Shown here one piece after another: positions 3,405-63,842 of a stretch of 64,000 bases of DNA (position 1 is the first letter of the stretch; each line of letters begins with the position of its first letter). Where the stretch lies: contig NC_092048.1 in assembly GCF_003086295.3 (NCBI RefSeq), positions 109,570,276 through 109,634,275 on the forward strand, written 5' to 3'. Both the position numbers and the translations under genes were made by a program. Source of the DNA: Arachis hypogaea. Lineage: Eukaryota > Streptophyta > Magnoliopsida > Fabales > Fabaceae. The notes beneath the pieces are model-generated. The model was not told where the DNA came from, did not search any database, and saw nothing but the letters and a program-made list of their open reading frames with translations.

Positions 3405-4899
3405 TGATAAACCACTATTTTATGGTTTATCATGTGCTTAATTGTGTGGTTTTATCAAGATCTTTACCCACTTATTCATATGATTGGCATGCATTTATAT
3501 TTCCTTCCTAAAATTATTACATGATTGAAAACTTGCTTCCTAGAGACTTTTAATTATGTATTTTAATTCTCCTTTATTCCATTCGATGTCGTGATCTGTG
3601 TTAAGTGCTTCAGGCTTTATAGGGCATGAATGAGTTGGAAATTGGAAAGGAAGCTTGCAAAAATGGAAGGAACACAAGAAATTGAGGAGATGACCAGCGA
3701 GAAGTGACGTGGCCGCATGGCTCACGCGACCGCGCGAAAGAGAAGAAATCGCAGTGACGTGGCCGCATGGCTCACGTAACCGCGCGGATTGGAATAGCAT
3801 AAGTGACGCGGAGGCGTGGACAACGCACCCGCGTGGCAAAGCAAAACACCGAATGACGCGTCCGCATGAATGACGCGATCGCGTGACGTGTGCGATCTGC
3901 ATAATCTGCAGAATTCGCTGGGGGCGATTTTGGGCCCTGTTTTGACCCAGTTTTCAGCCCAGAAAAGCAGACTAGAGCCAGAGAATATGGAGAAACCAAA
4001 AACAACATTCATTATACACAATTTTAGTTTTTTAGATCTAGTTTTACTCCTCCTCTAGGTTTTTCTCTTTACACATTCATAGTTCTTAGGATTTTATTTC
4101 TATTGCTTTTTGCATTGGGATATTGAGAAGAGTTATTACCTCATCAAGACTTCGTCATTCTAGTTCGTTTTCTTTACTTGGCTTTACTCTTCCATGTCCT
4201 TTAATTTACTCAATTTTACTATTGGATTATTTTAGAATTTATTAATACAAGAATTACTTTTATTTTTAATTGATTCCCTTGAGTTTTATCTATCATATCT
4301 TTCTTTAATTCCCTTTCCTATGTTATGAGTTCTACATTCACAATGAGCGACTAGTTCCCTAACTTGATGGGGAGTTGATTGAAAGGAACCCTTGAGTTGG
4401 GATGCTTAAAAGAAAAATTGTAATTAGGTTTATTGTTGGGATGCTTTCTAGTCATTGACACTAATCCTTTTCAATTGAACGGATTGGAACTTGTGAATAG
4501 AAACAGCATTCCAACTTGTTTGACTTTTCCTTACCTAGTAAGGGATAACTAAACAGAACAACCTTCAATTATCAATTAATCTTGAGAGTACTTCAACAAG
4601 AATAGGGCTTCCAACTAATCTACTCCCAGTCAAGGCTTTTATTTAAATTATTTAATTTCTCTAATTTAATTTCCTATATTTATTCAACTCAAACTCTTTT
4701 TGAAAACATCCGATTAATAAAATAGCACACCTTTCCGCAACTCGTTGGGAGACGACCTGGGATTCATACTCCCAGTATTTTAATTTTAATTTTTGTGACA
4801 ACCCTTCTAAATTTATAAGCGGATTTCTGGTTGGTTGAGAACTATACTTGCAACGTATATCTTATAACAATTCTTGACTCGCCAATTTTCGCCCCGTCA
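3405..4899 (+). repeat. LTR1 (5' LTR of E2)
   Basis: The LTR starts TGATAAACCA and ends CGTCA, five bases before the PBS, and is 1495 bp long. The first 28 bp form a perfect inverted repeat (TGATAAACCA ... TGGTTTATCA, 8-nt loop). About 297 bp in, a GC-rich palindrome array occupies 3702-3892. The U5 side carries the GGAGACGACCTGGGATTC signature and the CCAACTAATCTACTCCCAGT stretch found again in LTR2 and LTR3. Over the first 490 bp it differs from LTR2 at roughly 20 sites, mostly C/T and G/A changes in the CG-rich array. Confidence 0.93.
3702..3892 (+). repeat. ACGCG-type palindrome array in LTR1
   Basis: Four degenerate units of about 40 bp each contain GTGACGYGG...CGCRTGGCTCACGCGACCGCG-like words, that is, pairs of ACGCG-N-CCGCGT cores separated by A-rich spacers. 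The array is far richer in CG than the AT-rich LTR around it. LTR2 has the same array at 11572-11760. The same core recurs in solo LTR F and in the pol-ORF3 spacer of E3. Confidence 0.85.
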
Positions 4900-4904
4900 A
4901 GTTT

Positions 4905-4922
4905 TGGCGCCGTTGCCGGGGA
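4905..4922 (+). other. E2 primer-binding site (tRNA-Asp)
   Basis: TGGCGCCGTTGCCGGGGA matches the tRNA-Asp 3' end over 18 nt, five bases after the LTR1 end. Confidence 0.96.
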
Positions 4923-5014
4923 GTTGCAATAGAGTGCTAAAGTTATTAATTGGAATTTATTTATTTGTATTTTATTTTATCTTGCTACTATGAGCTGCTT
5001 GTTTCTTTCGCTAG

Positions 5015-11270: not shown

Positions 11271-12638
11271 TGATAAACCACTATTTTATGGTTTATCATG
11301 TGCTTAATTGTGTGGTTTTATCATGATCTTTACCCACTTATTCATATGATTGGCATGCATTTATATTTCCTTCCTAAAATTATTACATGATTGAAAACTT
11401 GCTTCCTAGAGACTTTTAATTATGTATTTTAATTCTCCTTTATTCCATTCGATGTCGTGATCTGTGTGTTAAGTGCTTCAGGCTTTATAGGGCATGAATG
11501 AGTTAGAGATTGGAAAGGAAGCTTGCAAAAATGGAAGGAACACAAGAAATTGAGGAGATGACCAGCGAAAAGTGACGCGGTCGCATGGCTCACGCGACCC
11601 CGCGAAAGAGAAGAAATCGCAGTGACACGGCCGCATGGCTCACGCAACCGCGCGGATTGGAATAGCATAAGTGACGTGGAGGCGTGGACGACGCGTCCAC
11701 GTGGCAAAGCAAAACGCCGAATGGCGCGTCCACATGAATGACGCGATCGCGTGACATGCGCGATCTGCATAATCTGCAGAATTCGCTGGGGGCGATTTTG
11801 GGCCCTGTTTTAACCCAGTTTTTGGCCCAGAAAAGCAGACTAGAGCCAGAGAACATGCAGAAACCAAAAACAACATTCATTCTACACAATTTTATTTTTT
11901 TAGATCTAGTTTTACTCCTCGTCTAGGTTTTTCTCTCTACACATTCATAGTTCTTAGGATTTTATTTCTATTGCTTTTTGCATTGGGATATTGTGAAGAG
12001 TTATTACTTCATCAAGACTTCGTCATTCTAGTTCGTTTTCTTTACTTGGCTTTACTCTTCCATGTCCTTTAATTTACTCAATTTTACTATTGGATTATTT
12101 TAGAATTTATTAATACAAGAATTACTTTTATTTTTAATTGATTCCCTTGAGTTTTATCTATCATGTCTTTCTTTAATTCCCTTTCCTATGTTATGAGTTC
12201 TACATTCACAATGAGCGAATAGTTCCCTAACTTGATGGGGAGTTTATTGAAAGGAACCCTTGAGTTGGGATGCTTAAAAGAAAAATTGTAATTAGGTTTA
12301 TTATTGGGATGCTTTCTAGTCATTGACACTAATCCTTTTCAATTGAGCGGATTGGAACCTGTGAATAAAAACAACATTCCAACTTGTTTGACTTTCCTTT
12401 ACTTAGTAAGGGATAACTAAACAGAACAACCTTCAATTATCAATTAATCTTGAGAGTACTTCAACAAGAATAGGGCTTCCAACTAATCTACTCCCAGTCA
12501 AGGCTTTTATTTAAATTATTTAATTTCTCTAATTTAATTTCCTATATTTATTCAACTCAAACTCTTTTTGAAAACATCTGATTAAAAAAATAGCACACCT
12601 TTCTGCAACTCGTTGGGAGACGACCTAGGATTCATACT

Positions 12639-14148
12639 TGAAGAACTGAAGATTGATGGTTTAGAGGTTATAAAAACTCTCGTTGTAAGTATAGTTACTA
12701 AACCAAGCAATCAACCTTTCTTACAAATGTTTTGGGTATCACGAGTAACAAACCCCTAAATAAATTGTTAACCGAAGTATTCAAACCTCAGGTCGTCTTC
12801 TCAAGGAACTGCAGGGAAGTATGTTCTTATTATTGGTTATGGAGGTTGTAAAATCGGGGTTGAGAGTAAAGAGTAGATATGACAAATAACTTAAATAGCA
12901 ATTAAAATAAATAAATACTGTAAAGCAAACTTTTGGCAAGGTAAGAGAAATCGGAAGTCCAACTTAGTTATTCCTCTCAACAATAGTGAAAGTTGAATCT
13001 TAATTCCACTTAGTTAACCTTTATTAAAGTAAAGGAAAGTCAAGGGACTAATTAGTTTGACGTTCGAATCCTATTTATTTCCTAAGAAAAATTTGGGATT
13101 ATTGAAGTTCAGTTTAATTAGCAAGATAACGATTATCAATTATGCTGAGTTTGACAACTGTTGAGTTACTGATTTCTTAACCAAGACCAAAGAGGGAAAA
13201 AGTAAATTGCTGGAATAGAATGTCTTCAGATCGGAAACAATGATAACATAAATTAAAAAGAGCAATCATAAACTGAAAATACCTCGAATATTATTAATTC
13301 AAATAATAATCTATAACATGGAATAATTTATAAGCCAATTGGGCAACATCTGTAGATACGAATAAAAGCATTAAAGTAAAAGTAGCATAGAAACATGAAT
13401 TAAAGTAAATATTAAACCTGGATCGAGAGTCACTCTTAAAAACTAAGAGAAGTCCTAAATCCAAATCCTAAGAGAGAGAGGAGAGAACCTCTCTCAAACT
13501 AAATCTAAATCATGAAAAGTAATAAAAATACGAGCTCTCTTTGAATGGATGCATTCCTCCACTTTATAGCCTCTAGTCTGTGTGTTATGCACCTGGATCT
13601 GGGCCAAAAGGGCTTCAGAAATCGCTGAGGGCGTATTCTGTAAATTCTGATACGTGGCCTCTGTCACGCGTCCGCGTGGGTCACGCGGTCGCGTCATCTG
13701 GAGCTTTCCTTGTGGTGCGGTCGCGTCGGTCACGCATCCACATCGAATGCGCTATGCTCAAGTCGCGCGGCCGCGTCAGTCATGCGGCCGCGTCGTTGCT
13801 TCTTCACTCCTGGCACGCGATCGCGTCGTCCATGCGATCGCGTGGATGCCAGTTTCTTCAAAACTCCGTTTCGCACTTTTCTTCCATTTTTGTACGTTTT
13901 CTTTTCCATCCTTTAAGTCATTCTGCCTTAGAAAATCTGAAACTACTCAACACACTAATCACAGCATCGAATGGAAGTAAAGGTAATTAAAATAATTAAT
14001 TTTAAAGCTTAGGAAACATGTTTTTCACATACATCACATAATAAGGAAGGGAAAGTAAAACCATGCAATTAATATGAATAAGTGGGTGAAGGATTGAATA
14101 AATCACTCAAACTAAGCACAAAATAACTCATGAAATATGGATTTATCA
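12639..14148 (-). mobile_element. F: solo LTR, minus orientation, TSD ATACT
   Basis: A 1510-bp TG...CA segment is flanked by ATACT at 12634-12638 and 14149-14153, and the LTR2 sequence joins cleanly when it is removed. On the minus strand it starts TGATAAATCCATATTTCATG. No PBS, gag or pol is present, so it is a solo LTR left by recombination between the two ends of an element. An ACGCG-type palindrome array lies at 13655-13855, about 293 bp from its 5' end. Confidence 0.93.
13655..13855 (-). repeat. ACGCG-type palindrome array in solo LTR F
   Basis: Repeated CACGCGTCCGCGTGGGTCAC-like units carry ACGCG-N-CCGCG cores; about five pairs occur between 13660 and 13852. The core is the same as in LTR1/LTR2 although the rest of F is a different LTR family. 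Confidence 0.85.
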
Positions 14149-14287
14149 ATACTCCCAGTATTTTAATTTTAATTTTTGTGACAACCCTTCAAAATTGATA
14201 AGCGGATTTCTGGTTGGTTAAGAACTATACTTGCAACGCATATCTTATAACAATTCTTGACTCGCCAATTTTTGCCACGTCAATTTT

Positions 14288-16693: not shown

Positions 16694-17900
16694 TGGTGCA
16701 CAAATTGTGAATCACACTTTTCACAACTCGTACCACTAACCAGCAAGTGCACTGGGTCGTCCAAGTAATACCTCACGTGAGTAAGGGTCGAATCCCACGA
16801 AGATTGTTAGTTTGAAGCAATCTATGGTTATCTTGTAAATCTTAGTCAGGAAGTCAATTATGTTTATCAGTTGAATTGCGAATAACCAAGAGAGCATAAA
16901 TTAAAGGTTACTTGTTATGCAGTAATGGAGAATATGTTGGAGTTTTGGAGATGCTTTGTCTTCTGAATCTCGATCTGCTTTCCTCTGTCTTCTGATTCAC
17001 GCACGCACGCCCTCCTATGGCAAGCTGTATGTAGGGGATCACCGTCGTCAATGGCTACTTCCATCCTCTCAGTGAAGAATATGCTCACATGCTCTGTCAC
17101 AGCACGGCTAATCATCTATCGGTTCTCGATCATACTAGAATAGGATTCTTCATCCTTTTGCGTCTGTTACTAACGCCCAGTACTCGCGAGTTTGAAGCTC
17201 GTCATAGTCATTCGATCATTGAATCCTACTCGGAATACCACAGACAAGGTTTAGACTTTCCGAATTCTCATGAATGCCGCCATCAGTTCTAGCTTATACC
17301 ACGAAGATTCTAGTTAAGAGATCTAAGAGATACTCATTCAATCGGATATAGAACGGAGGTGGTTGTCAGGCACACGTTCATGGTTTGAGGAGGGTGATGA
17401 GTGTCATGGATCATCACCTTCATCACAGTTAAGCGCGAATGAACATCTTAGATAGGAACAAGCGTGTTTGAATGGAAAACAGAAATACTTGCATTAATTC
17501 ATTGAGACACAGCAGAGCTCCTCACCCCCCAACAATGGAGTTTAGAGACTCATGCCGTCAAAGAGTATAAAGTTTAGATCTATAAATGTCATGAGATACA
17601 AAATAAGTCTCTAAAAGTTGTTTAAATACTAAACTAGTAGCCTAGGTTTACAGAAAATGAGTAAACTCTGATAGATGGTGCAGAGATCCACTTCTGGAGC
17701 CCACTTGGTGTGTGCTGGGGCTGAGGCTTAAGCAATTCGCGTGCATAAGGCTGTTTTGGGCGTTCAACTCCAGGTTTGGATCCATTTCTGGCGTTGAACT
17801 CCACCTTTTGATCCTTTTCTGGCGCTGGACGCCAGAATTGGGCAGAGAACTGGCGTTGAACGCCAGTTTACGTCGTCTATCCTTGTGCAAAGTATGGACT
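16694..17900 (-). repeat. E4 3' LTR, U3 start deleted
   Basis: It matches the right LTR from TGGTGCACAAATTG through the palindrome array (17754-17870) and then breaks at about 17900. From there the sequence is 3' untranslated region homologous to E5 at about 30670. About 340 bp of the LTR 5' end and about 130 bp of adjoining 3' region, including the polypurine tract, are missing. The junction shares only a CT dinucleotide. Confidence 0.9.
17754..17870 (-). repeat. TGGCGTT-type palindrome array, E4 left LTR
   Basis: Four units about 30 bp apart: TTTTGGGCGTTCAACTCCAG, TTCTGGCGTTGAACTCC, TTCTGGCGCTGGACGCCAG and ACTGGCGTTGAACGCCAGT. Each is an imperfect inverted repeat around GCGTT-N-AACGC. Near-identical units lie in the right LTR at 26956-27072. 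Confidence 0.88.
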
Positions 17901-18961: not shown

Positions 18962-19231
18962 CTAGCGCTTCAGTTTCTTTAAGTCACGCCCTTGCTCCTC
19001 TTGTTCCCTGAGCAGTTTGTAGAGCATGCTGTTTTGATTTTGCTCTTGGATTTCCGGATATTCATCTTCTTTCAGATCGAATTTAACTTCCGGGATCACT
19101 GATCTTAGACCTATTATTTTGTAGTAATGGTCTGAATGTTCCTTGGTTAAGAACTTCCCTTGATTCCAAAGTGGTTTTGGAATACTCTCTTTCTTGCCTC
19201 TTGGAGTGGGTTGTTTTCCTTTAGGGGCCAT
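18962..19231 (-). pseudogene. E4 ORF3 remnant (plant transposon-type protein), internally deleted
   Basis: A short frame from ATG 19231 reads MAPKGKQPTPRGKK, a basic N-terminus, then a segment (FLTKEHSDHYYKII, VIPEVKFDLKEDEYPEI) matching the ORF3 N-terminus of E5. It then jumps to a charged C-terminal piece (LLREQEEQGRDLKKLKR). About 300 residues present in E5 are absent. The frame is open (89 residues), so it may be a decayed gene or a derived small protein; I favour decay. ORF3 sits where Athila-type elements carry an additional gene of unknown function. Confidence 0.7.
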
Positions 19232-19289
19232 GATCTTAGTGATCACGGATAAGCACACCAAACTTAGAGGTTTGCTTGTCCTCAAGCAA

Positions 19290-19735
19290 AAGAAAAGAAA
19301 GGAGATGGGTAGAAGGAGAGCTTGTGTCCAGTGGTGGATGAGAGGAGGGAGGGTGGGATTTTCGAAAAAATTAAAAAGATAAGATAGAAGATATGATTTT
19401 AAAAAGATATGATATGAAAAGATGTGAATTAAGATTAAAAAGATAAGAAAGATTTTTGAAAAAGATAGATCTAGATTTTGAAAAAGATATTGATTAGTTG
19501 AAAAGATTTTAGAGTGAAAAAGATAGATTTGTTTTTAGAAAAGGTTTGAAAAGAGTTGGATTGAATTTTCAGAAGGGGATTTGTGCTTATGGATTAAGAT
19601 ACATTTGATATTTTTAAAGAGAGATTTTAGAAATCAAGGTTCTTAACATATTTATGCAAGAAATCATGAATTGAAAACATGGAATTTTAAAATTAGAATG
19701 AAAAAATATGAAGAAAAATGATTTTACCTCCTCCC
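19290..19735 (-). other. E4 second leader-like region upstream of ORF3
   Basis: An A/G-rich stretch (minus strand T/C-rich) of repeated GATTTTGAAAAAGATA-like words, plus an ACACCAAACTTAGAG motif followed by GCTTGTCCTCAAGC (19247-19285). The same combination lies between PBS and gag (25171-25875). Confidence 0.65.
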
Positions 19736-19740
19736 CACCA

Positions 19741-19947
19741 TCCTGGCGTTTGAACGCCCAAACACTGCCTGTTTTGGGCGTTCAACGCCCAAATGCTGCA
19801 CTCCTGGGCGTTCAACGCCCAGTTGTTGCTCTTTTCTGGCGTTGAACGCCAGATTGCTATCTTTACTGGTGTTCAGCGCCCACTGGATGACCCTTTTGGG
19901 CGCTGAACGCCCAAAATGGGCTCTTACTGGCGTTTTCTTGCCAGTGA
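19741..19947 (-). repeat. TGGCGTT-type palindrome array, E4 pol-ORF3 spacer
   Basis: Seven units about 30 bp apart, for example TTTTGGGCGTTCAACGCCCA, TTCTGGCGTTGAACGCCAGA and TTTTGGGCGCTGAACGCCCA. They alternate between CTGG...CCAG and TGGG...CCCA outer arms, the two arms of a unit usually changing together. The sequence is non-coding here. Confidence 0.88.
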
Positions 19948-23897: not shown

Positions 23898-24168
23898 CTG
23901 GCAATTGAGTGCCAGAGTTAGAAACTGGAGTGACGTTAGATGCCAACTCCTTGTCTGTTCCTGGCATCTGAACGCCAGAATTGTGCCCATTTTGGGCGTT
24001 CAGTGCCAGATCCTGCCCATTTTGGGCGTTCAACTCCAGATCCATGCCCATTTCTGGCGTTGAACGCCAATCCTGCTTTGTTTCTGGCGTTGAACGCCAG
24101 TTTTGGCCATGGTCTGGGCGTTCAGCGCCAGCCTTCCACCAATTTTCTGGCGTTTTAGCGCCAGAATT
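23898..24168 (-). repeat. TGGCGTT-type palindrome array inside the E4 gag-PR linker
   Basis: Seven to eight units about 30 bp apart (for example TTCTGGCGTTGAACGCCAGT at about 24083). They lie in the gag-pol reading phase: translated on the minus strand the units give repeats such as NWRSTPE, DWRSTPE and LALNAQN. A TAG at 23887-23889 follows the array. Confidence 0.85.
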
Positions 24169-25899: not shown

Positions 25900-27442
25900 T
25901 GGTGCACAAATTGTGAATCACACTTTTCACAACTCGTACCACTAACCAGCAAGTGCACTGGGTCGTCCAAGTAATACCTCACGTGAGTAAGGGTCGAATC
26001 CCACGAAGATTGTTGGTTTGAAGCAATCTATGGTTATCTTGTAAATCTTAGTCAGGAAGTCAATTATGTTTATCAGTTGAATTGCGAATAACCAAGAGAG
26101 CATAAATTAAAGGTTACTTGTTATGCAGTAATGGAGAATATGTTGGAGTTTTGGAGATGCTTTGTCTTCTGAATCTCTGCTTTCCTCTGTCTTCTGATTC
26201 ACGCATGCACGTCCTCCTATGGCAAGCTGTATGTAGGGGATCACCATCGTCAATGGCTACATCCCATCCTCTCAGTGAAGAATATGCTCACATGCTCTAT
26301 CACAGCACGGCTAATCATCTGTCAGTTCTCGATCATACTGGAATAGGATTCTTCATCCTTTTGCGTCTGTCACTAACGCCCAGCACTCGCGAGTTTGAAG
26401 CTCGTCATAGTCATTCGATCATTGAATCCTACTCGGAATACCACAGACAAGGTTTAGACTTTCCGGATTCTCATGAATGCCGCCATCAGTTCTAGCTTAT
26501 ACCACGAAGATTCTAGTTAAGAGATCTAAGAGATGCTCATTCAATCGGATATAGAACGGAGGTGGTTATCAGGCACACGTTCATGGTTTGAGGAAGGTGA
26601 TGAGTGTCACGGATCATCACCTTCATCATAGTTAAGCGCGAATGAACATCTTAGATTGGAACAAGCGTGTTTGAATGGAAAACAGAAATACTTGCATTAA
26701 TTCATCGAGACACAGTAGAGCTCCTCACCCCGCAACAATGGAGTTTAGAGACTCATGCCGTCAAAGAGTATAAAGTTTAGATCTGAAAATTTCATGAGAT
26801 ACAAAATAAGTCTCTAAAAGTTGTTTAAATACTAAACTAGTAGCCTAGGTTTACAGAAAATGAGTAAACTCTGATAGATGGTGCAGAGATCCACTTCTGG
26901 GGCCCACTTGGTGTGTGCTGGGGCTGAGGCTTAAGCAATTCACGTGCATAAGGCTGTTTTGGGCGTTCAACGCCAGGTTTGGATCCATTTCTGGCGTTGA
27001 ACTCCAACTTTTGATCCTTTTCTGGCGCTGGACGCCAGAATTGGGCAGAGAACTGGCGTTGAACGCCAGTTTACATCGTCTATCCTTGTGCAAAGTATAG
27101 AATATTATATATTGCCGGAAAGCCCTGGATGTTTACTTTCCAAAGCAATTGGAAGCGCGCCATTTCGAGTTCTATAGCTCCAGAAAATCTACTTTGAGTG
27201 CAGGGAGGTCAGAATCCAACAGCATCAGCAGTCCTTTTTCAGCCTGAATCAGATTTTTGCTCAGCTCCCTCAAATTCAGCTAGAAAAATACCTGAAATCA
27301 CAGAAAAACACACAACTCATAGTAAAGTCCAGAAATATGAATTTTTCCTAAAAACTAATGGAATTAAACTAAAAACTAACTAAAACACCCTAAAAACTAT
27401 ATGAAATTAACCCCAAAAAGCGTATAAAATATCCGCTCATCA
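25900..27442 (-). repeat. E4 5' LTR
   Basis: 1543 bp, TGGTGCAC ... CGCTCATCA on the plus strand, so TGATGAGCGGATA ... GTGCACCA in element orientation. It contains a palindrome array (26956-27072), a TTGGAAAG-type module with TATATAAT (27098-27160), and a U5 block with the palindrome CTCACGTGAG. The 5' terminus holds a near-palindrome GCGGATAATTTATACGC. Confidence 0.94.
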
Positions 27443-32782: not shown

Positions 32783-33339
32783 CAATGGTAATGGAAAAAC
32801 AAAAAGCTTATGCTTTTACCACATAAAACTTAGAATATTGCTCGCCCTCAAGCAAGAGAAGAAAGAATAGATGAAGAAGAAGAAGAAAATATGGAGGAGA
32901 GGAGGGAGAGGTGTATTCGGCCAAGAAGGGGAAAAGAGGGTTGTGTTGTGTGAAAATGAGGAAGAATGGAAGGCTTTATATAGGGAGGGGAGGGGGGTTA
33001 GTTTCGGCCATATAGGGTGGGTTTGGGTGGAAAATTGATTTTGAATTTTGAAGGTAGGTGGAGTTTATGAGGTAGGTTTATGGGGAAGAGTGGATGGATG
33101 TGAGTGGTGAAGTGGTGATAGGGAAGAGAGATTGAGGTGATTGGTGAAGAGTTTTGGGGAAGAGTGTTTATTGGGAAGAGAGGATGAACATTGAGAAGAG
33201 GAAAGAGAGTGAGTGGTGGTAGGTGGGGATCCTGTGGGGTCCACAGATGCTGAGTTGATCCTGTGGGGTCTACAGATCCTGAGGTGTCAAGGATTTGCAT
33301 CCCTGCACCAATTAGGCATGTAAAATGCCTTTGCATGCA

Positions 33340-38001: not shown

Positions 38002-39713
38002 TGGTATGCGAAATTGTTACTCAGGTTGTAAAATTTGTTGTTCGTTCTCTCCCTGGCAATGGCGCCAACAAACTGGTGCACAATACCATGGTCCAAACAT
38101 AACTTCACAACTTCGCACAACTAACCACCAAGTGCACTGGGTCGTCCAAGTAATAAAACCTTACGTGAGTAAGGGTCGATCCCACGGAGATTGTTGGTAT
38201 GAAGCAAGCTATGGTCATCTTGTTAATCTCAGTCAGGCGGATATCAAATGGTTATGGAGTTTTTGAATAATAATAATAAATAAATAGAAAATAAAGATAG
38301 AAATACTTATGTATATCATTGGTGAGAATTTCAGATAAGCGTATGGAGATGCTTTCATTCCTCTGAATCTCTGCTTTTTCGCTGTCTTCATCCAATCAGT
38401 CTTACTCCTTTCCATGGCAAGCTTTCTGTAAGGGCATCACCATTGTCAATGGCTACATCCCATCCTCTATTGTGAAAATGGTCCAAATGCTCTGTCACAG
38501 CATGGCTAATCATCTGGAGGTTCTCGATCATGCTGGAATAGGATTCACCTTCCTTTTGCGTCTGTCACTACGCCCAGCACTTGCAAGTTTGAAGTTCGTC
38601 ACAACCATCCCTTCCCAGATCCTACTCGGAATACCACAGACAAGGTTTAGACTTTTCGGATCTCAGGAATGGCCATCCATGGGTTCTAACTTATACCACG
38701 AAGATACTAATAACTCGGACTCGGTCCCCTGTATTAGATATCTAAGAGATACTCATTCTAGCTTGTTTGCATGTAGAACGGAAGTGTTTGTCAGGAACGC
38801 GTTCATAAGTGAGAATGATGATGAGCGTCACATAATCATCACATTCATCATGTTCTTGGGAACGAATGGATATCTTAGAAGCGGAATAAGTTAAATTGAA
38901 TAGAAAAACAGTAGTACTTTGCATTAAATCATGAGGAACAGCAGAGCTCCACACCTTAATCTATGGAGTGCAGAAACTCTACCGTTTGAAGATACATAAG
39001 TGATAATGGTCCAGGCATGGCCGAATGGCCAGCCCCCATACGTGATCAATATGATTCCCAGATGAACTAAAAATCATAAGATGTAAACACAATAGTAAAA
39101 AGTCCTATTTATACTAAACTAGTTACTAGGGTTTACAGAAGTAAGTAATTGATGCATAAATCCACTTCCGGGGCCCACTTGGTGTGTGCTTGGGCTGAGC
39201 TTGAAGTTTACACGTGCAGAGGCTTCTTTTGAAGTTGAACGCCAAGTTGTAACGTGTTTTTGGCGTTCAACTCTGGTTCGTGACGTGTTTCTGGCGTTTA
39301 ACTCCAGACTGCAGTGTAGAACTGGCGTTCAACGCCCTTTTGCGTCATCTAAACGCGGCCAAAGTGTGGACTATTATATATTGCTGGAAAGCCCTGGATG
39401 TCTACTTTCCAACGTAATTGGAAGCGTGCCATTTTGAGTTTTGCAACTCCAGAAAATCCACTTTGAGTGCAGGGAGGTCAGAATCCAACAGCATCAGCAG
39501 TCCTTCTTCAACCTCTGATTCTGATTTTTGCTCAAGTCCCTCAATTTCAACCAGAAAATACCTGAAATCACAGAAAAACACACAAACTCATAGTAAAGTC
39601 CAGAAATGTGAATTTAACATAAAAACTAATAAAAACATCCCTAAAAGAAACTAGATCCTACTAAAAACATACTAAAAACAATGCCAAAAAGCGTATAAAT
39701 TATCCGCTCATCA
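38002..39713 (-). repeat. E5 5' LTR
   Basis: 1712 bp, same limits as the left copy, including the 72-bp U5 extension with vestigial PBS (38050-38067), a palindrome array at 39230-39340 and the TTGGAAAG module. It ends CGCTCATCA and is followed by TSD GATTG. Confidence 0.94.
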
Positions 39714-41715: not shown

Positions 41716-42237
41716 ACGCGACGCGACCGCCTCATTGACGCGTCCGCGTTGCAGGTGATTGGAGAAAATAATAAAATGAACAGAGAGTCACGCAAGAGCG
41801 TGGCTGGAGGCGTGCCCATGGCACAAATCACCCCACGCAACCGCGTCACCGACGCGTCCGCGTCAAATGGGAACATTGGCCTCCCACGCGACCGCGTCAC
41901 TCACACGGCCGCGTGCCCTGAAATTCAACGTGAACAGGGTGCACGACCGAAAGTTGTGCTAGAGTGGTGCTGGATTGGTGTTGAACGCACAATTCTTTCC
42001 ACGCGGCCGCGTGACCAACGCGACCGCGTCATATCCTTCTAATGGCCACTCACGCGATCGCATGCCCCACGTGATCGCGTCACCCCAGATTTGGTAAAAA
42101 TAAAACTTTCAAACAGACAGTTGTGCGAGTGCCAGGCTACCCTCGCGCCAGTAGCATGAAACAGGTCACGCGACCGCGTGACCGATGCGACCACGTCAAT
42201 CAGTATAAGCGCAAGTCGCGCGACCGCGTTGCTTGCG
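41716..42237 (+). repeat. ACGCG-type palindrome array, E3 pol-ORF3 spacer
   Basis: At least seven pairs of ACGCG-N-CCGCGT cores (for example CCACGCGACCGCGTCACTC, CCACGCGGCCGCGTGACC) spread over 520 bp, with AT-richer spacers. The core is the same as in LTR1 and LTR2 of this family. E2 lost the region by deletion. Confidence 0.85.
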
Positions 42238-43018: not shown

Positions 43019-44012
43019 ATGGCCACCAAGAAAGGCAAAGAGAAATTTACTCCCAAATCAACAGCGAGGAGAGGAACAAAAAGAGCATTAGTGGCAGAAC
43101 CCTCTTCAACTGCGGTTAAACCCTCAACAAAAAGAACTAAGAGGATTATAAAGGTTGATGATAAAGAAAAAACTTTCCCAGCAAAAGACACTGCGCGATT
43201 TCCCAATCGCTACTGTGAGCAGATGTTCCCCATCCTGGCAAAAAGGAGTTACAACAACGAATACCTTCTTCTCCTACCAATTTGACTGGGACGCCGTTCT
43301 CAGAGTTATCGCACTACCTGGCAGCCGTTGGATCTATGGATACCATCGTAACCGCCCTAAGGGAATATCGGCTTCAGCACTTACCTTGGAGGCTCGCGTA
43401 TGGGACTAGATCATGTCCCATTACGTCTTCTCGAGCACTCACGAGTCCTCCTTCACTGCGGACATGGCCGTCCTACTATGGTGCATCCTTACAGACCAAC
43501 CTCTGAATCTACCAAGACACATCCGAAATGCCATGGGACACGTACAAATTGCGGGCAACTTACCTTTTCCCGCCTTGGTCTCAGATCTTGTCTCCGCAGC
43601 CGGAGTCTCCTACAGAGCTGGGGACACCAAAGCCATGCTCCCACGGGATGATCAGTATGTCCCTAACGGAAAATACATCAAACCTCCACTAGCCGCCACA
43701 AGCCATCCTACTGAACCAGTTGAAGATATTCCTTCTTCAACACCACAAGCACCTACAACAGAGCAACTGCTCCATCAGATACTCTAAAGGTTGGATCGGC
43801 AGGAACACAAAGCTAAGATGAGAGAGCGCCGTAACAAACGCCGATTCACATACCTCAAGGAGCTGATTATGGGAAAATTCAAGGACTCAGACACCCCAGA
43901 TTCCACTTCCTTTAGCAGCACAGGAAGCCATGATGGCCCCGACTGTGGAGATACTGCAACCAGCCCATCTTTGTTTCTGACAGATGGCACCGAGGACGGT
44001 GCAAAGCCTTAA
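43019..44012 (+). pseudogene. E3 ORF3, plant transposon-type protein, frameshifted
   Basis: ATG 43019 opens MATKKGKEKFTPKSTARRGT, a very basic start, then KDTARFPNRYCEQMFPILAKR. A frameshift between about 43200 and 43285 leads into FDWDAVLRVIALPGSRWIYG, a TAG (43407-43409), then SHYVFSSTHESSFTADMAVLLWCI, HIRNAMGHVQIAGNLPFPALV, SDLVSAAGV and a Pro/Thr-rich linker. A TAA (43785-43787) precedes a basic coil (HKAKMRERRNKRRFTYLKEL) ending at TAA 44010-44012. It occupies the place of the Athila third ORF. Only the fold family is suggested by the conserved core; an envelope role is not supported because I see no signal peptide or membrane span. Confidence 0.8.
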
Positions 44013-45174: not shown

Positions 45175-47008
45175 TGATGACAAGTCATCTTATCCTAGTT
45201 TCACTAGTCTTTTCTTTTGTTTTCAATTGATTTTATGCACTTTCTTGAACCATAAGTAAGCCAATTAGGTAGAATTTCATGTTTCCTTTGATTCAATCAA
45301 CCATGGATGAATTAATGCAATTTCATGAGATTTTGTGCTATAATTGTCATATATTATGAAAGAATAACAAACTCATGATTTTGAGCATAGCTTTGATGTG
45401 TTTGGTTGATTGATGATAGGGAAAAAGAGCTTTGAAGAAGGTTGAAGAAAGAAGGAATGGCTAGGAGCAAGAGAGAACAAAAAGCTTGAGCCAAAGTTTG
45501 CCTCAAACTTTAGCTCAAACTTTTGGAAGAGTGAATTCACATTGGATGGAGCAAAAGCTTGCGCCAACATTTGCCTCAAGCTTTTTGGCAAACGTTGGCG
45601 CCACACCAACACCCTGGAGGAGAAAAGCTTGCGCCAACGTTTGCCTCATGCTTTTTGGCAAACGTTGGCGCCACACCAACATACCCAGGGGAGAAAAAGC
45701 TTGCGCCAATGTTTGCCTCAAGCTTTTTGGCAAACGTTGGCGCCACCATCAACACACCCAGGAGAGCAAAAGTTTGCGCCAACGTTTGCCTCAAGCCTTT
45801 TGGCAAACGTTGGCGCCACAAGGCATACAAGAAGGCTCAACGTTTGGCTCAAAGTTTGACCTCAAACTTTAGCTCAAACATTGATAGCAGCAAAAGGGGG
45901 GCAGCTGATATGAAAAGCTTGAGCCAAAGTTTGCCTCAAACTTTGACTCAAGCTTTTATGATTCATGGCCCGGTTCACAATGGGTTTCTCTCCAACTCCA
46001 AGAGCAATCAACAGAGGCTTTTATCAACCCAATTCCATCAAGAGCAAAGGCCCAATTCAAGGCTTGAAGACCATTTGAAGAAAGTGTATAAATAGCTTAG
46101 GATTTAAGTTTTCAGGGAGCTTCCTTGGAGAATTTTTACATACTTACAGTTGAGAGCTCACCTTTACATTTTTGAATTGTTGCTTTAGAATTCTAGAGAA
46201 TTGGGAAGGAGAATTGATCTCTCTTCTTCCTTGTTCTTGCTTAGCACTCTTTACTTTTCTTGCTTTGGATCTTGGGTGAAGAATTGAAGAACTTCTGTTT
46301 CAATCTCACCTTGGGATCTTGTTTAATTTTCTGCATAAGTGAATTTCAATTTCTGTTCATTGCCTCTTCTTCTACTCATTCTGCAATTTACTTTTCTTTA
46401 TTTCTTGCAATTGAATTCTACATTTGGATCTAGGAAGGCATTGAGATCTAGACTCGGTTATCTAGTCTCTTGGGTCTTGAGATCTGGAGTTTTCATTTTA
46501 AATTCTCTGTTTAATGTTTTTTTTCAAGTTCATTTACATTTCCGTTTTAGATCTGGTTCAATTCAATTCTTCTCTAATTTTCAGTTTAGTGCAATTTACT
46601 TTTCCTTGTTTAAATTCTGCAAACCCACTTCCCAATTCCCTTTATAATTCAAGTAATTTACATTTCTTGCACTTTAAGATTCAGCCATTTACATTTCTTG
46701 CAATCTAAGTTTCTGCAATTTACATTACTTGTTCTTTAAGATTCAGCTTATTTACTTTCTTTGCTCTTTAATTTTCTGCAATCTACCCCTCTCCCTTTAC
46801 ATTTCAAGAAATTTAGTTTCTGCAATCACAAATCACCCAACCAATACTTGATTCGCTTGACTAAATCAACCACTAAACTAAAATTGCTCAATCCTTCAAT
46901 CCCTGTGGGATCGACCTCACTCACGTGAGTTATTATTACTTGATGCGACCCGGTGCACTTGCCGGTTAGATTGTGTGTTTGGAATTCATTTTCCAAAAAT
47001 ACACATCA
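45175..47008 (+). mobile_element. G: solo LTR, plus orientation, TSD ATTAC
   Basis: An 1834-bp TG...CA segment with ATTAC at 45170-45174 and 47009-47013; the E3 3' region joins exactly across it. It starts TGATGAC-AA-GTCATC, a terminal stem-loop, and ends with a U5 block containing ATCGACCTCACTCACGTGAG and GGTGCACTTGCCGG. No internal coding sequence. Open frames at 45486-46095 are translations of the hairpin array, not genes. Confidence 0.94.
45482..45957 (+). repeat. Hairpin array in solo LTR G
   Basis: Four units of about 72-77 bp (45560-45822), each with left arm GCGCCAACGTTTGCC and right arm GGCAAACGTTGGCGC, giving a 15-bp stem around a TCAAGCTTTTT loop. Flanking half-related hairpins use GAGCCAAAGTTTG / CAAACTTTAGCTC arms (45486-45525, 45845-45880, 45915-45957). 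The array starts about 307 bp from the LTR 5' end. Confidence 0.93.
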
Positions 47009-47210: not shown

Positions 47211-49468
47211 TGATGCGCATAAACTTGTTATGCTACGATTTAGGAAATTGCACGATCGGCAAAATTCCTTCCGGCAAGTGCACCGGTTATCGTCAAGTAA
47301 AAACTCACAATAGAGTGAGGTCGAATCCCACAAGGATTGGTTGAGTGAGCAATTCGGATTAGAAGTATGTTCTAGTTGAGCGGAATCAAAATTTAGATGA
47401 GAATTGCGGAATGTAAAATAGCATGAATTAAAGAGCGAGAAGCTAAATTGCTGAAATTAAAAGGGATGGGGGTGATTGCATGAATTTAATTGCAGAATGT
47501 AAAGAGAAAATGGAAATCAGAAATGGGGGATTCATTGGGTTATAGGAGATATTGAGATCTCCGAATCAAAACATGTTTATCTCTTCCTCAACCAATGCGT
47601 TCATTGAATTTTGCTTGGCAATCTTATATGATTGGATCCCAATCCCTTGGCTCACCAATTCTCTCTAAAAACAAACAAATTCCCAATCCCTTGGTTTAAA
47701 TGTTCATAAGAAGAGATGATGCTCGATCACTGATTATACCACACAGTTTTATGAACCACAATTTGGTAGGATTACATGTCACAATATCCATCCAAACCCC
47801 AATCCAATTCACTGTGAGAAAGCTTCTCTAGCATGAATCCTCCATTCCTTTCCCAAGGTTCCGAAGGATTCCAATTATGGGTAGTTTCTTTCCCAAGACA
47901 ACTACCCAATGGAATTAGATTGAGAAGCTTTCTAACAAAATTCAAGAGAAAAGATTGAAGAAGAAGATAAACTATTATTGATTCATTGAATTACAATAGA
48001 GCTCCCTAACCCAATGAAAGGGGGTTTAGTGAGTCATAGCTCTGAATTCAATTACAAAACTAAAGGAAAATGATCCAAAGTTCTCTCTGTGTAAAACTTC
48101 CCCCTCAGGGGCTGGATTCCCCTTCAATCCCCCTGTGTCTCTCAAATGCAGAAACTAAGGCCTTTAAATAGGCTCCCTAAATTACAAAATGAAAATGAAA
48201 TTCAAAGCAAATTACAATCAAATGAAAATAAACTATTCTAGATGATTCTTGTGGCCTTGATTTGGTGTTGTTGATGGGCCTTGCTTGCTTGAAGGGTAGA
48301 GTGACATAATTGATCCAAAAAGGATAATGATCCATTAAACTACACTCAAACGTTGCACCCCCCTTTCTTGAGTCGTCACTTTGTTCTCTTGTCAACTTTG
48401 CCAATTTGATGCCAAATATAGACTATTATACCTCGTTGGAAAGCTATGGATGTCAGCTTTCTAATGCAACTGGAAGCACCTCAATTGGATCTCTACAACT
48501 CGAGTTATACTCCATGGAAGGTGAAGAGGTCAGCTGGCCTGATTGCATGTTGGTACTATGCTCTTCTATGAACATTATGGGGCTGTTTTCTCCCTCAATT
48601 TTTAGTATCCACCATGCATGCCATATATGCTTGGAAAGCTCTAGATGTCTTCTTTCCAATGCATTTTGAATCACCTCATTTGGAGTTTTGTAGCTCAAGT
48701 TATTTATGTTTGAAGAAGGCATGGTCAAGCTGTTCCATATAACACGTTTAAGCTCCAGTTTAAGCTTAAACTGGAGCTTAAACGCTGGCACTCCCTGGAG
48801 GCACAAGCTCGAGCACGTTTAAGCTTCAGTTTAAGGTTAAACTGAAGCTTAAACGTGGAAATGAGAAAGCAACCCTGGAGGAGAAAAATAGTCGAACACG
48901 TTTAAGCTCCAGTTTAAGGTTAAACTGGAGCTTAAACGTGGAAATGGCTCCCTGGTGTATTTCCCATTTCCACGTTTAACCTCCAGTTTAACCTTAAACT
49001 GGAGGTTAAACGTGGAAATGCTTCCTGAGTGGCATTCTCATTCTGGCGTTTAACCTCCAGTTTAAGGTTAAACTGGAGGTTAAACTTCAGTTTCAGCATT
49101 TCTTAGCCTTCATGATTCTGGCGTTTAAGCTCCAGTTTAGGCTTAAACTGGAACTTAAACTCCACATGTGATATTCAAGCTTCCTTTATTGATTTTGTTG
49201 CTTCCTTGCCTAGCCTCTTCTTCCCTGAAATCATCCAAACAATTGCATCAAAGTCTTGCAAAATTTCATGAGAAATCTTCCATTCATAGCATTCAAGTAA
49301 TATAACTAAAAACTCATGGAATTTGCATCAAAATCTTCATGTTGAATGATTTAAGACAAGCATGACTATTTGGCCCAAATGATTACTTAAGGCTCAAGAA
49401 AATGCATAAAACAACTAAAAATAAAAGAAAAAAGGCTAGTGAAACTAGCCTAAGATGCCTTGGCATCA
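47211..49468 (-). repeat. D 3' LTR
   Basis: 2258 bp, TGATGCGC ... TGGCATCA on the plus strand. The 5' terminus in element orientation forms GATGCC-AA-GGCATC (49454-49467), followed by GGCTAG-TTTCA-CTAGCC (49434-49450). It contains two TTGGAAAG-type modules (about 48412-48550 and 48610-48730) and a hairpin array. U5 carries GAGGTCGAATCCCACAAGG. Confidence 0.92.
48743..49163 (-). repeat. Hairpin array in the D LTR
   Basis: Six long hairpins, each up to 21-bp perfect stems with a 2-nt loop: near 48743, 48814, 48897, 48970, 49046 and 49120. The arms read CACGTTTAAGCTCCAGTTTAA and its complement; in the second unit CTCC/GGAG becomes CTTC/GAAG, and in the fourth AAGCTCC/GGAGCTT becomes AACCTCC/GGAGGTT, so the arms co-vary. 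Confidence 0.94.
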
Positions 49469-52892: not shown

Positions 52893-52897
52893 ATTTT

Positions 52898-57228: not shown

Positions 57229-59795
57229 TGATGTACAGAAAACTTGTCTCTCAACAAATCTCCCTTCGGCAAGTGTACCGAATTGTCGTCAAGTAAAACT
57301 CACAATAGAGTGAGGTCGAATCCCACAGAGATTAACGGATTAAGCAATCAATGGTTAATTGACTATCCTAGTTAGACGAATCAGATTGGAGTGATAAGCA
57401 ACAAGGAATTGTAAATTGACAGAAAAGTAAAGAAAGCAATAAAGTGCAGAAAAGTAAAATGGCAAGAAAAGTAAATGTAAGAATTAAAAATAAAATGAAC
57501 ATTGGGATCAAGAGATATTGCAATCCTCCGGATCAAGTTCATTCTCATCTCTTCCTCAATCAATGCACTCATTGATCTCCTTGGCAATCTTAATTGATCG
57601 AATTACAATTCCTTGTAATTCAATCTCTCAAATCTTGATCAATAGCCAATTTCTTGGTCAATTGCTCATGAGAAGAGATGAAGTATGGTCACTGATTATA
57701 CCACATGCATTTCCCAAATCAAGCATTGAGAGGATTATAGTCACATATCCATCCAAACCCAATTTGGTCCAGCATGAGAAAGCATTTCTAGCTTGATCTC
57801 TTCATTCCTCTTCCAAGGTTCAGAAGAGATCCAAGTATGAATAGTTTCTTTTCCAAGATAACTACCCAATTGGATGAAGATCGAAAGCTTTCAAGTAAAA
57901 TCAAGAGAAAAGAAAGAAGAAGAAGAATAAGAACTACAATTGATCCATTGAATCACAATAGAGCTCTCTAACCCAATGTAAAGAGTTAGTTGGTCATTGC
58001 TCTACAAAAATAGAAAAGAAAGAAAGTGCAGAAAAGTAAAGATGAAGATAAAAACTAAAAATAAAACTTCAAAATTCATGAATGAAAATTACAACTAAAA
58101 TGAAACTACTCCTAAGGAAGAAAAGAAGAGAAAAGGAAGAAGAGTGGTTGAGGGGAGGGGTCCGAAGACCCACTCCCCTTGGAGTGTGCCAATTCACAGA
58201 AGTTTGAATTGGTCTTCACTCTCTCCCCCTTCCTCCAATTCTCCAGAATTCTAGAATGCTTTGAATGTAAAAACTAAGGCCTTTATGTAGGCTCTCCTAA
58301 ATTACAAAATGAAAGCAAATTACAATAAAATGAAAATTCCTATTCTAGATGCTTCTTGTGGTCTTGATTGGTTCACAATTGTGGGCTTGCTTGCTTGAGC
58401 TTTGAAGTGGACTTGAGAGAGAAGTGAGTTAAGTTGAGGCCCAGGTGCTAAAGTTAGTGCTAAAGTTAGCCACACTAACGCTACAAGTGTGGCGTTAGTG
58501 CTAAAGTTATTGTGGCTAACGTTGCACTTGTTGCCCAGTTGGTGTTTTTAGGGCTTAAAAGATGCCTCTTGTTTGTACTCAAATTTCATTCCCACTATAA
58601 AGTATTATATATCTTTGGAAAGCTCTGAATGTCAGCTTTCTAACGCAACTGGAATCACCTCAATTGGACCTCTGTAGCTCAAGTTATGCCCCTTTGAAGT
58701 GGACATGGTCGCTGGCATATATGCCAACGTTACTGGAAATGTTAATTGCCAATAACGCTAGCGATTTCCCGTTTCTGAAGCTCAAACTTAGTGTCCACCC
58801 CATACTATTATATATCGTTGGAAAGCCCTGGATGTCTACTTTCCAATGCCTTTGAAAGCGCATCATTTGGAGCTCTACAACTCGAGTTATACTTCTTGGA
58901 AGGTGAAGAGGTCAGTTGGCCTAAATACAGGCTGATACCATGTTCATCATTGCACTTTCGGGGCAGGTTTTCTCCCTCAAATTTAGTGTCAACCATGTAG
59001 TGCCATATATGCTTAGAAAGCTCTGGAATCCTAATTTCCAATGCCGCTGGAATCACCTCATTTGGAGCTTTGTGGCTCAAGTTATGCGTATTTGAAGAAG
59101 GCATGGTCAGGCTGCCAGGTGGGACTTTTGCCCACGTTAACTACCACGTTAACTAAGTTAACGTGGGAGTTAACGTGGCTTATTGGGGGCTTTTGAGTTC
59201 ACTCCAACGTTAGTGAGAATGTTTGGTGTCACTAACGTTGTCGATCACCACCTTTCTCCACGTTAGCTTCCACGTTAACTAAGTTAACGTGGGAGTTAAC
59301 GTGGCTTTGTTGTAACTTAGGCCAACGTTAGTGACAATGTTGAATGTCACTAACGTTGGCTTTCCCCCTTTCTTCTTAACGTTAGAGGCCCCGTTAACTA
59401 AGTTAACGTGGCAACTAACGTGCCCACTTATGAGCTTGGTCCAACGTTAGTGATAATGTTAAGTGTCACTAACGTTGGCTCCGTTTCCTTTCTTCAAAGT
59501 TAATGCCACTAACTTTTCCCACTAACGTGGCTCTTCTCTTCTTCTTTTGGCCTGAAATCAATCAAACAAAGTGCATCAAAGTCTTGCTCTTAATCATGGA
59601 TCATGCATCATCCAATTTATCATATAATTCATGCAAAATCCTGATGAAATCATGTAAAATGCACAATGTATGCTTGAATCAAGATGTAAGTGAATATCCA
59701 CCCAAAACTAGTTTATTTCCTAAGAAAATGCATGAAATTACCTTAAAAACAGTAAAGAAAAGGTCAGTGAAACTGGCCAAAATGCCCTGACATCA
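57229..59795 (-). repeat. K left (3') LTR
   Basis: TGATGTACAG ... TGACATCA. It contains three TTGGAAAG-type modules (about 58597-58690, 58798-58925, 59005-59110) and a hairpin array at 59120-59520. The terminal hairpin has one mismatch. Confidence 0.88.
59120..59520 (-). repeat. Hairpin array in the K left LTR
   Basis: Alternating hairpins: type A CCACGTTAACT-A-AGTTAACGTGG-like and type B CAACGTTAGTGACA ... TGTCACTAACGTTG, three of each, with a period of about 115 bp. Confidence 0.92.
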
Positions 59796-61503: not shown

Positions 61504-61521
61504 TCCCCGGCAACGGCGCCA
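61504..61521 (-). other. K primer-binding site (tRNA-Asp)
   Basis: The minus strand reads TGGCGCCGTTGCCGGGGA, exact, six bases from the right LTR end at 61528. Confidence 0.96.
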
Positions 61522-61527
61522 TAAACT

Positions 61528-63842
61528 TGATGCACGGAAAACTTGTCTCTCAACAAATCTCCCTTTGGCAAGTGTACCGAAGTTGTTGTCAAGTAAAAAC
61601 TCACAATAGAGTGAGGTCGAATCCCACAGGGATTGATTGATCAAGCAACTTTAATTAGAAGAATGTTCTAGTTGAGCGAATCCAGGATTTGGGTTGAGAG
61701 TTGCAGAAAATAAAATGGCGGGAATGTAAATAACAGAAAAGTAAATGCTAGAATTAAAGGAATGGAAGTAAATGACTGAAAATAAATTGCAGAATTGTAA
61801 ATGGGAATGGAGGATTTGCTCATAAAAGTAAATGGCAAAAATTAAAGAGAATGGGTAAGATCAGAGATGGGGAGTTCATTGGGCTTAGGAGATGTTGCAA
61901 TTCTCCGGATCAAGTTCATTTTCATCTCTTCCTCAATCAATGCACTCATTGATCTCCTTGGCAATCTTAAGTGATTGAATTACAATTTCTTGCAATTCAA
62001 TCTCTTAAATCTTGATCAATAGCCAATTCCTTGGTCAATTGCTCATGAGAAGAGATGAAGTATGGTCACTGATTATACCACATGCATTTCCCAAATCAAG
62101 TATTGAGAGGGTTATAGTCACATACCCATCCAAACCCAATTTGGTCCAGCATGAGAAAGCATTTCTAGCTTGATCTCTTCATTCCTCTTTCAAGGTTCAA
62201 AAGAGATCCAAGTTTGAATAGCTTCTCTTCCAAGATAACTACTCAATTGGATGAAGATCGAAAGCTTTCAAGTAAAATCAAGAGGAAAGATAGAAGAAGA
62301 ATAATGAAAATTAGTATTGATCCATTAAATTACAACAGAGCTCCCTAACCCAATGAAAGGGGTTTAGTTGTTCACAGCTCTTGAAAATGAAAACAAAGAT
62401 GGAGAATACATCATAAAACTAGAATTTGCAAAGAAAGTAAAATACAAAGAGTAGTTCTCTTTTTCCCAGCCTCCCGAGCTTCTTTACAATTCAAAGCTAC
62501 TCCTATATATACTACTCTTCTCAGCTTCTAGTTTACTCTTCAAGTCTTGGGCCTTTGGATCTTGAGTTTGAAGCAGTTCTTTTCTTCATTTGGGCTTGGC
62601 TTTACTTGCAGAGAGAAAGTGCTAAGTGGGCAGAGACTTCAGCTCAGGACGTTAGGGGTGTTAATATTTAGTGAGAATATAAGCTCGAGAACGTTAGTGA
62701 CACTTAACATTGTCACTAACGTTCCAATGCACCCCTTTGCCTTACGTTAAAACCCACGTTAACTAGGTTAACGTGGCTTTTAATGTTGCCTTGTTAATCC
62801 TTCGAGAACGTTAGTGACACTCAACATTGTCACTAACGTTCCAGTGTGCCCCTTCTTGTTTCATGTTAAAGCCCACGTTAACTAGGTTAACGTGGCTTCT
62901 AACGTGGTCCTTGCCAACCTTCAAGAACATTAGTGACACTCAACATTGTCACTAACGTTCCAATGTGCCCCTGGGTCTCACGTTAGAGTCCACGTTAACT
63001 AGGTTAACGTGGCCTCTAACGTAGCCATCTTTAGCCATCCCAACGTTAGTGACAATGTTGAGTGTCACTAACGTTGGCTCATCCTTCATTCCTCATTGTT
63101 AGCTTCTACGTTAACTAAGTTAACGTGCAGGTTAACGTGACTCTTGGGGGTTGTGTGGTTGCTTCAACGTTAGTGACAATGTTGAGTGTCACTAACGTTG
63201 TCGACAACTCTTCATCCTTTACGTTAGTTCCCACGTTAACCAAGTTAACGTGGGAGTTAACGTGGTACTTTGCACCATAGGTCAACCTTAGTGACAATGT
63301 TGAGTGTCACTAACGTTGGCTTCTCTTCCCCCCTTAACGTTAGAGGCCACGTTAACCTAACCTAACTAGGTTAACGTGGCTTCTAACGTGGCCACTTATG
63401 AGTAATTGCCAACGTTAGTGACAATGTTAAGTGTCACTAACGTTGGCTCAACTTCTCTTCTCCACGTTAGAGTTCACGTTAACTTAGTTAACGTGACTCT
63501 CTAACGTGGGCATTGATGGCTTTTTGAGAATGTTATTGGCAATCACTTTTCTCATTAATCTTGCAAGTTACCTCCCCTTTTCTTGCTTCCTTTTTGGTCC
63601 TGAAATCAAGCAATAAAGTGCATCAAAGCTCTAGTCCAAGTCATGAGTAATGCAACATAATATTTGTCACTAAACTTATGCAAAATCCTCATGAAATTAT
63701 GTAAAATGCACAATGTATGCTTGAATCAAGGCATAAGTGAATATTTACCCAAAACTAGCTTATTTCCTAAAGAAATGTATGAAACTATCCTAAAAGCAGT
63801 AAAGAAAAGGTCAGTAAAACTGGCCAAGATGCCCTGGCATCA
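61528..63842 (-). repeat. K right (5') LTR
   Basis: TGATGCACGG ... TGGCATCA. It lacks the TTGGAAAG modules of the left LTR and has a hairpin array about twice as long (62686-63512). Its U5 side (TTCTAGTTGAGCG, GGGGAGTTCATTGGG) resembles D more than the left LTR does. Terminal stem-loop GATGCC-CT-GGCATC at 63828-63841. Confidence 0.9.
62686..63512 (-). repeat. Hairpin array in the K right LTR
   Basis: Seven A/B pairs with a period of about 115-120 bp. Type B units 1-3 have arms GAACGTT...AACGTTC and loop ACTCAACAT; units 4-7 have CAACGTT...AACGTTG and loop ATGTTGAGT, the reverse complement. Type A units are CCACGTTAACTAGGTTAACG- or CACGTTAACTAAGTTAACGT-like. Confidence 0.94.

Follow-up and report, generated by a model that had tools for sequence, protein, structure and literature searches.

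The 64,000-nucleotide stretch of Arachis hypogaea DNA analysed here (contig NC_092048.1, positions 109,570,276 to 109,634,275; its whole length is called the window below) consists of nested long terminal repeat (LTR) retrotransposons, which we designated X, D, M, K, F, G and P. The LTRs of all seven families carry an array of repeated dyad half-sites that begins 301-378 bp from the LTR 5' end, and in X2 (the second X unit), M and K the half-site of the LTR recurs in a further array in front of the 3' open reading frame (ORF). Judging from the sequences, we lean towards regarding these arrays as cis-regulatory, enhancer-like platforms in the U3 (unique 3') part of the LTR, built of dyad half-sites, matched by the arrays before the ORF and exchanged as cassettes.

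The LTR boundaries, their orientation and the target site duplications (TSDs) were re-derived from self-comparison, LTR ends and duplications, primer binding sites (PBS) and Pfam matches. In sense LTR coordinates, the arrays start at ~301 in X1 (first ACGCG at 320), 305 in X2, D and G, 306 in F, 372 in M5, 378 in K5 and K3, 318 in P3 and 347 in P5 (5 and 3 after M, K and P stand for the 5' and 3' LTR), and these are all ten copies with an intact 5' end. A preliminary description of the window had stated that different LTR families carry arrays at about the same distance from the LTR 5' end, which is borne out in sense orientation. Its distances for X, D, M, K, F and G lie within ~15 bp of the re-derived values, whereas the 265-330 given for P became 318-347 on re-measurement, with one P3 half-site at 268. 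Note that its labels were matched to ours by distance, so that LTR1 and LTR2 presumably correspond to X1 and X2, D to D, E4 to M, E5 to K, F to F, G to G, and K to P. The suspicion that some of its distances had been taken from the wrong LTR end was dropped on re-orientation.

Half-sites of the ACGCG type make up the arrays of X1 (3705..3890, plus strand; ACGCG-nn-CGCGT, imperfect), X2 (11571..11755, plus strand) and the solo LTR D (13664..13844, minus strand; strict hairpins). The M arrays in the 5' LTR (26960..27071, minus strand; GGCGTT-n-AACGCC) and in the 3' LTR, whose 5' part is missing (17757..17868, minus strand), are accompanied by those of the K 5' LTR (39228..39336, minus strand) and K 3' LTR (30061..30169, minus strand), with five and three intact GGCGTT half-sites, respectively. 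The solo LTR F contains GCGCCAACGTTTGCC hairpins (45480..45957, plus strand) and the G LTR GTTTAA[GC]CTCCAGTTTAA hairpins (48745..49164, minus strand). In P, CAACGTTAGTGACA and CACGTTAAC hairpins are found in the 3' LTR (59132..59478, minus strand) and 14 strict hairpins in the 5' LTR (62689..63496, minus strand). The longest hairpin arms measure 27 bp in G, 16 bp in P and 15 bp in F.

Hairpin coverage (score of at least 8, loop of at most 12) was compared with 60 dinucleotide shuffles in 11 LTR copies. The array alone exceeded all shuffles in five of them, i.e., D (87 bases, shuffle maximum 68), F (307, 79), G (268, 93), P5 (502, 127) and P3 (251, 96). M5 and M3 reached 82 bases (shuffle maxima 53 and 45) only with the inclusion of a second hairpin that lies beyond the array, as the array alone gave 42; X2 reached 84 bases against a maximum of 58, but just 29 of the 84 came from the array. 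X1 (55 bases, shuffle maximum 99) and both K LTRs (0) did not exceed the 60 shuffles. Clusters of the family half-site, by contrast, surpassed all 300 shuffles in each of the ten copies tested (M3 was left out), although the motifs had been picked after the arrays were seen. By these shuffle tests, the term palindrome array applies strictly to D, F, G and P and marginally to M, whereas X and K possess half-site clusters only.

The same half-sites are found inside the elements. Of 59 ACGCG sites in the window, 46 fall in the arrays of X1, X2 and D and in an internal X2 array (41716..42229, plus strand; 21 sites), which is located between integrase and the Transposase_32 ORF. Similarly, 46 of 58 GGCGTT sites fall in the M and K LTR arrays, in a K internal array between a protease-like ORF and the Transposase_32 ORF (33345..33575, minus strand), and in two M internal arrays with the LTR motif GGCGTT-n-AACGCC, one between integrase and the 3' ORF (19745..19934, minus strand) and the other between gag and protease (23971..24154, minus strand). 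The internal clusters exceeded all 200 shuffles. An array with the LTR half-site precedes the 3' ORF in all three elements that have this stretch in the window (X2, M, K); X1 is without ~3.2 kb relative to X2, and in X3 and G the stretch is incomplete, being cut off or interrupted. No internal cluster of P motifs and no ORF of at least 150 amino acids were present in the ~1.7-kb internal part of P. By sequence, the matching internal arrays are new here, and the feature is wider in distribution than the preliminary description had it.

The 3' ORF occupies the env position in K (31571..32590, minus strand; PF20167, Transposase_32) and in X2, where a fragment (43410..43784, plus strand) matches PF20167 with an E value of 7.1e-10 and 39.5 bits, under the gathering score of 45. 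The M ORF (18965..19534, minus strand) has no Pfam match of its own and was recognized by its similarity to the sequence immediately upstream of the Transposase_32 ORF in K; in all three the envelope identity is putative. The K ORF matches 59 proteins, and the named ones are from Arachis hypogaea, A. stenosperma, A. duranensis, A. ipaensis and Stylosanthes scabra.

A replacement of one array by another at the same place is seen in the comparison of G with P3. Their 5' sectors align with z=20.8 and the segments just below the array with z=100.8, but the arrays themselves only with z=2.2, and the homology restarts 12-17 bp past the array edges used. For this pair, with its homologous flanks and unrelated arrays, the earlier statement that position is kept while sequence is replaced is accurate; other pairs are less clean. 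The F array is weakly similar to those of P5, G and P3 (z=8.1, 4.9 and 4.4), so the replacement is not equally clean in all pairs, and the arrays are homologous within the pairs X/D (z=19.9) and M/K (z=15.6). Between P3 and P5, the 5' sector (z=54.9) and the array (z=56.6) are shared, whereas the segment below the array is not (z=-0.9), and P3 holds a G-like segment there. The two P LTRs belong to a single insertion (57229-63842) and are unequal in length (2567 bp for the 3' LTR, 2314 bp for the 5' LTR) as well as in array size. As LTRs of one insertion should begin identical, conversion or recombination has probably acted, and the difference suggests conversion or a mosaic origin. From these comparisons, the arrays and their neighbouring segments appear to behave as exchangeable cassettes, and the swaps between homologous flanks would provide ready-made promoter cassettes that reporter tests could use.

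The constancy of the distance has to be seen in the light of ancestry. In the sector before the array, X1 and D align with z=32, M5 and K5 with z=75, and F, G, P5 and P3 among themselves with z=17-55, whereas alignments between these groups give z=-0.2 to 5.9, with 3 of 20 pairs above all 200 shuffles. By this measure, the families form three homologous lineages (X/D, M/K and F/G/P), which are perhaps distantly related to each other in the same sector. The arrays start at 301-305 in X and D, 372-378 in M and K, and 305-347 in F, G and P. Since the families group in three lineages, the conserved distance mostly reflects shared ancestry. In a simulation with an assumed room of 430, 480 and 524 bp above the promoter, three uniform random starts fell within 77 bp in 6.5% of cases; therefore, distance by itself is weak evidence of function. 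The same distance does hold across different families, but these are not independent, and with respect to position the feature is narrower than had been claimed.

Presumed TATA-like boxes, picked by eye among several matches of a loose pattern, are located at LTR positions 581 (D), 612 (M5), 601 (K5 and K3), 913 (F), 1300 (G), 1332 (P5) and 1510 (P3). In six of the ten copies with an intact 5' end the box lies 98-180 bp below the last hairpin or half-site of the array (D 98, M5 131, K5 125, K3 180, F 130, P5 178 bp), and the suggested place of the array relative to the promoter is supported to this extent. Furthermore, the arrays are rich in CpG. The observed/expected ratio is 0.56-1.71 in all 15 arrays, as compared with 0.43 for the window, and it exceeds that of the rest of the LTR in all nine LTRs compared, with F (0.56) and G (0.64) being the weakest. 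CpG-rich stretches are present outside the arrays as well, e.g., around the PBS.

In the interpretation that we favour, the repeated dyad half-sites in the U3 of Athila-type LTRs would be readable by a dimeric host DNA-binding factor, through whose binding the array would act as an enhancer. The array would be placed between the ~300-bp 5' sector of the LTR, which is homologous within a lineage, and the promoter, and a second array with the same half-site before the 3' ORF would probably make both transcription units answer one factor. The distance would stay the same because the members of a lineage inherit the 5' sector and because the array must remain upstream of the promoter. Changes in sequence would come from repeat turnover and from array exchange, for which template switching or conversion between the homologous flanks is the probable mechanism. 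The motifs are lineage-specific and recur in the internal arrays, and a role as family-specific tag, which had been proposed for them, may apply too.

Several observations weigh against this interpretation. In G and P3 the presumed TATA box is far from the array (576 and 846 bp downstream of it, respectively), a canonical box is missing from the expected place in X1 and X2, and the TATA pattern matches elsewhere too in these AT-rich LTRs. Neither a common half-site nor a known factor was identified, and the evidence comes from one locus with three lineages. The array between gag and protease of M is located where no promoter is expected and does not fit a role restricted to promoters. An internal promoter could be represented in K by TATATAAAG (32974..32982, minus strand), which is found 363 bp below the internal array and 200 bp ahead of a possible ATG at 32782; however, the frame of this ATG runs into a stop ahead of the PF20167 ORF, and in M TATATAAAG was noticed upstream of the internal array rather than below it. 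In X2, a polypyrimidine stretch and CAGG (43017) directly precede an ATG (43019) at the start of the 3' ORF region and resemble a 3' splice site. In view of the broken K frame, the splice-like site in X2 and the position of TATATAAAG in M, we regard the internal promoter as a candidate.

Alternatively, the arrays could function as RNA. They would fold in the RNA of the element, as part of the 3' untranslated region (from U3) and in the spacer before the 3' ORF; the hairpin form would be what is kept, and the folds would serve as a source of small RNAs or act on the RNA level in another way. The predicted folds are indeed very stable (up to -53 kcal/mol per 100 nt in G), and in maize Sireviruses small RNAs concentrate on the LTR palindromes (Bousios 2016, as described in passages of PMC10760457 and PMC5311732). 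However, the hairpins of X1 and K are not above chance and those of M are borderline. The sense-strand stems of the arrays contain 29 A.C mismatches and 7 G.U pairs, and A.C prevailed in 12 of 12 settings (p from 0.0002 to 0.021), the opposite of the prediction for selection on a sense-RNA hairpin; the substitution counts of the elements are balanced between the strands (G>A 91, C>T 92). Note that control hairpins outside the arrays skew likewise in some settings (A.C:G.U of 22:5 and 29:9) and little in others (55:50 and 45:31), so the wobble skew may not be specific to the arrays. For the same reason the skew was dropped as a proof of antisense RNA function. Antisense RNA folds are more stable than sense folds in 13 of 15 arrays. 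Only the G units differ in both arms more often than in one (13 and 10), whereas one-arm differences prevail elsewhere (one-arm/both-arm: P type A 67/21, P type B 43/7, F 9/0, M/K 382/91, X/D 340/68). In arm permutation, P type B units matched their own arms better than those of other units (p=0.011), but the other five tests missed 0.05 (M/K 0.058, G 0.066, P type A 0.13, X/D 0.55, F 1.0; the M/K and X/D unit lists include overlapping entries). Since X1 and K lack above-chance hairpins and G.U is not enriched, the idea that the hairpin form is the conserved trait finds no support, and we regard an RNA function as unlikely.

A second alternative is neutral turnover. In that case tandem repeats would spread in a tolerant part of U3, the fixed position would mean shared ancestry and nothing else, and the likeness of the arms would result from palindrome self-correction by quasipalindrome templating or strand transfer during reverse transcription. 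The three homologous lineages cover all families, and the frequency with which random starts come equally close has been given above; the P5/P3 differences within a single insertion indicate that arrays and neighbours do turn over, and the M array between gag and protease can be added to this list. However, purely local slippage would not be expected to place one half-site both in the LTRs and in the internal arrays of X, M and K, the arrays are CpG-rich inside CpG-poor LTRs, and a parallel layout exists in Ty1/copia Sireviruses (PMC2829016). Neutral turnover alone thus seems rather improbable to us, and the enhancer-like platform remains the reading that we prefer.

As to the elements themselves, X (3405-64000, plus strand) reads as three LTR-internal units in tandem, of which the third has no LTR start. 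Unequal recombination between LTRs would leave such an arrangement; the other six (D, M, K, F, G and P) are inserted into X or lie next to it. The X1 LTR spans 3405-4899 (plus strand), and the X2 LTR is split into 11271-12638 and 14154-14282 by the solo LTR D (12639-14148, minus strand; TSD ATACT). M (minus strand; TSD AAGAC) has its 5' LTR at 25900-27442 and its 3' LTR at 16694-17895, and K (minus strand; TSD GATTG) at 38002-39713 and 28835-30546. The solo LTR F (45175-47008, plus strand; TSD ATTAC) is followed by the truncated G (minus strand; LTR 47211-49468) and by P (minus strand; TSD CTAAT), with P3 at 57229-59795 and P5 at 61529-63842. X1 exhibits the Ty3/gypsy order, i.e., reverse transcriptase (7825-8859) and then RNase H and the integrase zinc domain (8863-9693); in K, no reverse transcriptase or integrase ORF was detected in Pfam scans. 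Seven PBS-like sites with TGGCGCCGTTGCCGGGGA or minor variants, two of them with one changed base, adjoin LTRs (plus strand 4905, 14288 and 52898; minus strand 61521, 37995, 25893 and 2913). We take this PBS to be of the Athila, or tRNA-Asp, type. Together with the 3' ORF it suggests that the elements are Athila-type Ty3/gypsy retrotransposons, among which D, F, G and P were assigned only through their LTR similarity, PBS or position.

Some further observations were made on the LTRs and the interior of the elements. The X LTR opens with a 10-bp inverted repeat, TGATAAACCA, with a loop of 8 (3405-3432 and 11271-11298). The M, K and P3 LTRs have in common TTTCC followed by ATATATAATA, which is located above the array in M5 and K and below it in P3, so the order of LTR modules differs. 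At gathering thresholds Rfam gave no match on any array and two matches altogether, both to snoR71 antisense to gag (35490-35597, plus strand, in K and 5567-5673, minus strand, in X1); this Rfam family may therefore also catch retrotransposon gag sequence. The X1 reverse transcriptase had no relatives among the viral contigs or genome contigs searched. Two palindrome patterns matched 17 and 4 viral contigs with one site each, which we took as chance.

Among known systems, the U3 of Tnt1 contains partly symmetric boxes that are repeated ahead of the promoter and vary from one subfamily to another, and in this respect it is similar to the Arachis arrays. Unlike the Arachis elements, Tnt1 is a Ty1/copia element with short LTRs, and we know of no second array before a 3' ORF in it. 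Its box I is called symmetric in a passage of PMC2829016. Among the matches listed for Athila, palindromes, env-like genes and Arachis, no title or abstract opening describes such arrays in Athila LTRs, and no paper was found with six short array strings; these negative statements are confined to that literature and to passages of PMC2829016, PMC10760457, PMC5311732, PMC11302176, PMC10373317, PMC4977677 and PMC1142308.

The closest parallel is found in the Sireviruses (Ty1/copia). According to Bousios et al. 2010 (PMC2829016), the LTRs of 13 of 21 Sirevirus elements possess element-specific palindromic repeats (RM), which begin 200-400 bp into the 3' LTR, are located upstream of the TATA box and form CpG islands. 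Of 79 RM copies in the linker, 77 precede ENV, and the four RM elements without ENV have no linker copies; a CGG-CCG core is present in 12 of 13, and the RM is termed Sirevirus-specific, being absent from the classic Ty1/copia elements compared there (same paper). The Arachis arrays likewise start within 200-400 bp of the LTR start in all ten intact copies, are element-specific, CpG-rich and present in many copies, and recur before the ORF in the env position (X2, M, K). The presumed TATA box lies close below the array in six of the ten copies and far below it in two, and the remaining two have no canonical box there. In contrast to the RM, the Arachis arrays reside in Ty3/gypsy elements of the Athila type (with reverse transcriptase before integrase in X), their hairpin arms reach 27 bp, and M contains one more array, placed between gag and protease. 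The cores differ as well (ACGCG, GGCGTT/AACGCC, CAACGTT, GTTTAA and ACGTTA); by inspection, CGG-CCG is missing from the M/K, F, G and P cores, but some X/D units (GCGGCCGC) contain it. Furthermore, the small-RNA link of the palindromes in the maize Sirevirus LTR cis-region is based on data (in the passages cited above), whereas the Arachis arrays are known here from sequence alone. By analogy, the Arachis arrays look as if they resembled the RM in their working without being members of the RM system.

Tentatively, one may go further and propose that Sireviruses and Athila elements arrived separately at a two-site system, in which a lineage-specific palindrome array in U3 and its counterpart ahead of the 3' ORF form a replaceable address that couples two transcription units and is swapped whole between homologous flanks, perhaps under the pressure of host recognition. 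If the layout is indeed common to Ty1/copia and Ty3/gypsy elements, one could test whether the 3' ORF is driven by a second promoter, and whether the motifs evolve to keep up with host factors or to evade the small RNAs of the host. It would then be a general design of large plant retrotransposons rather than a peculiarity of Sireviruses.

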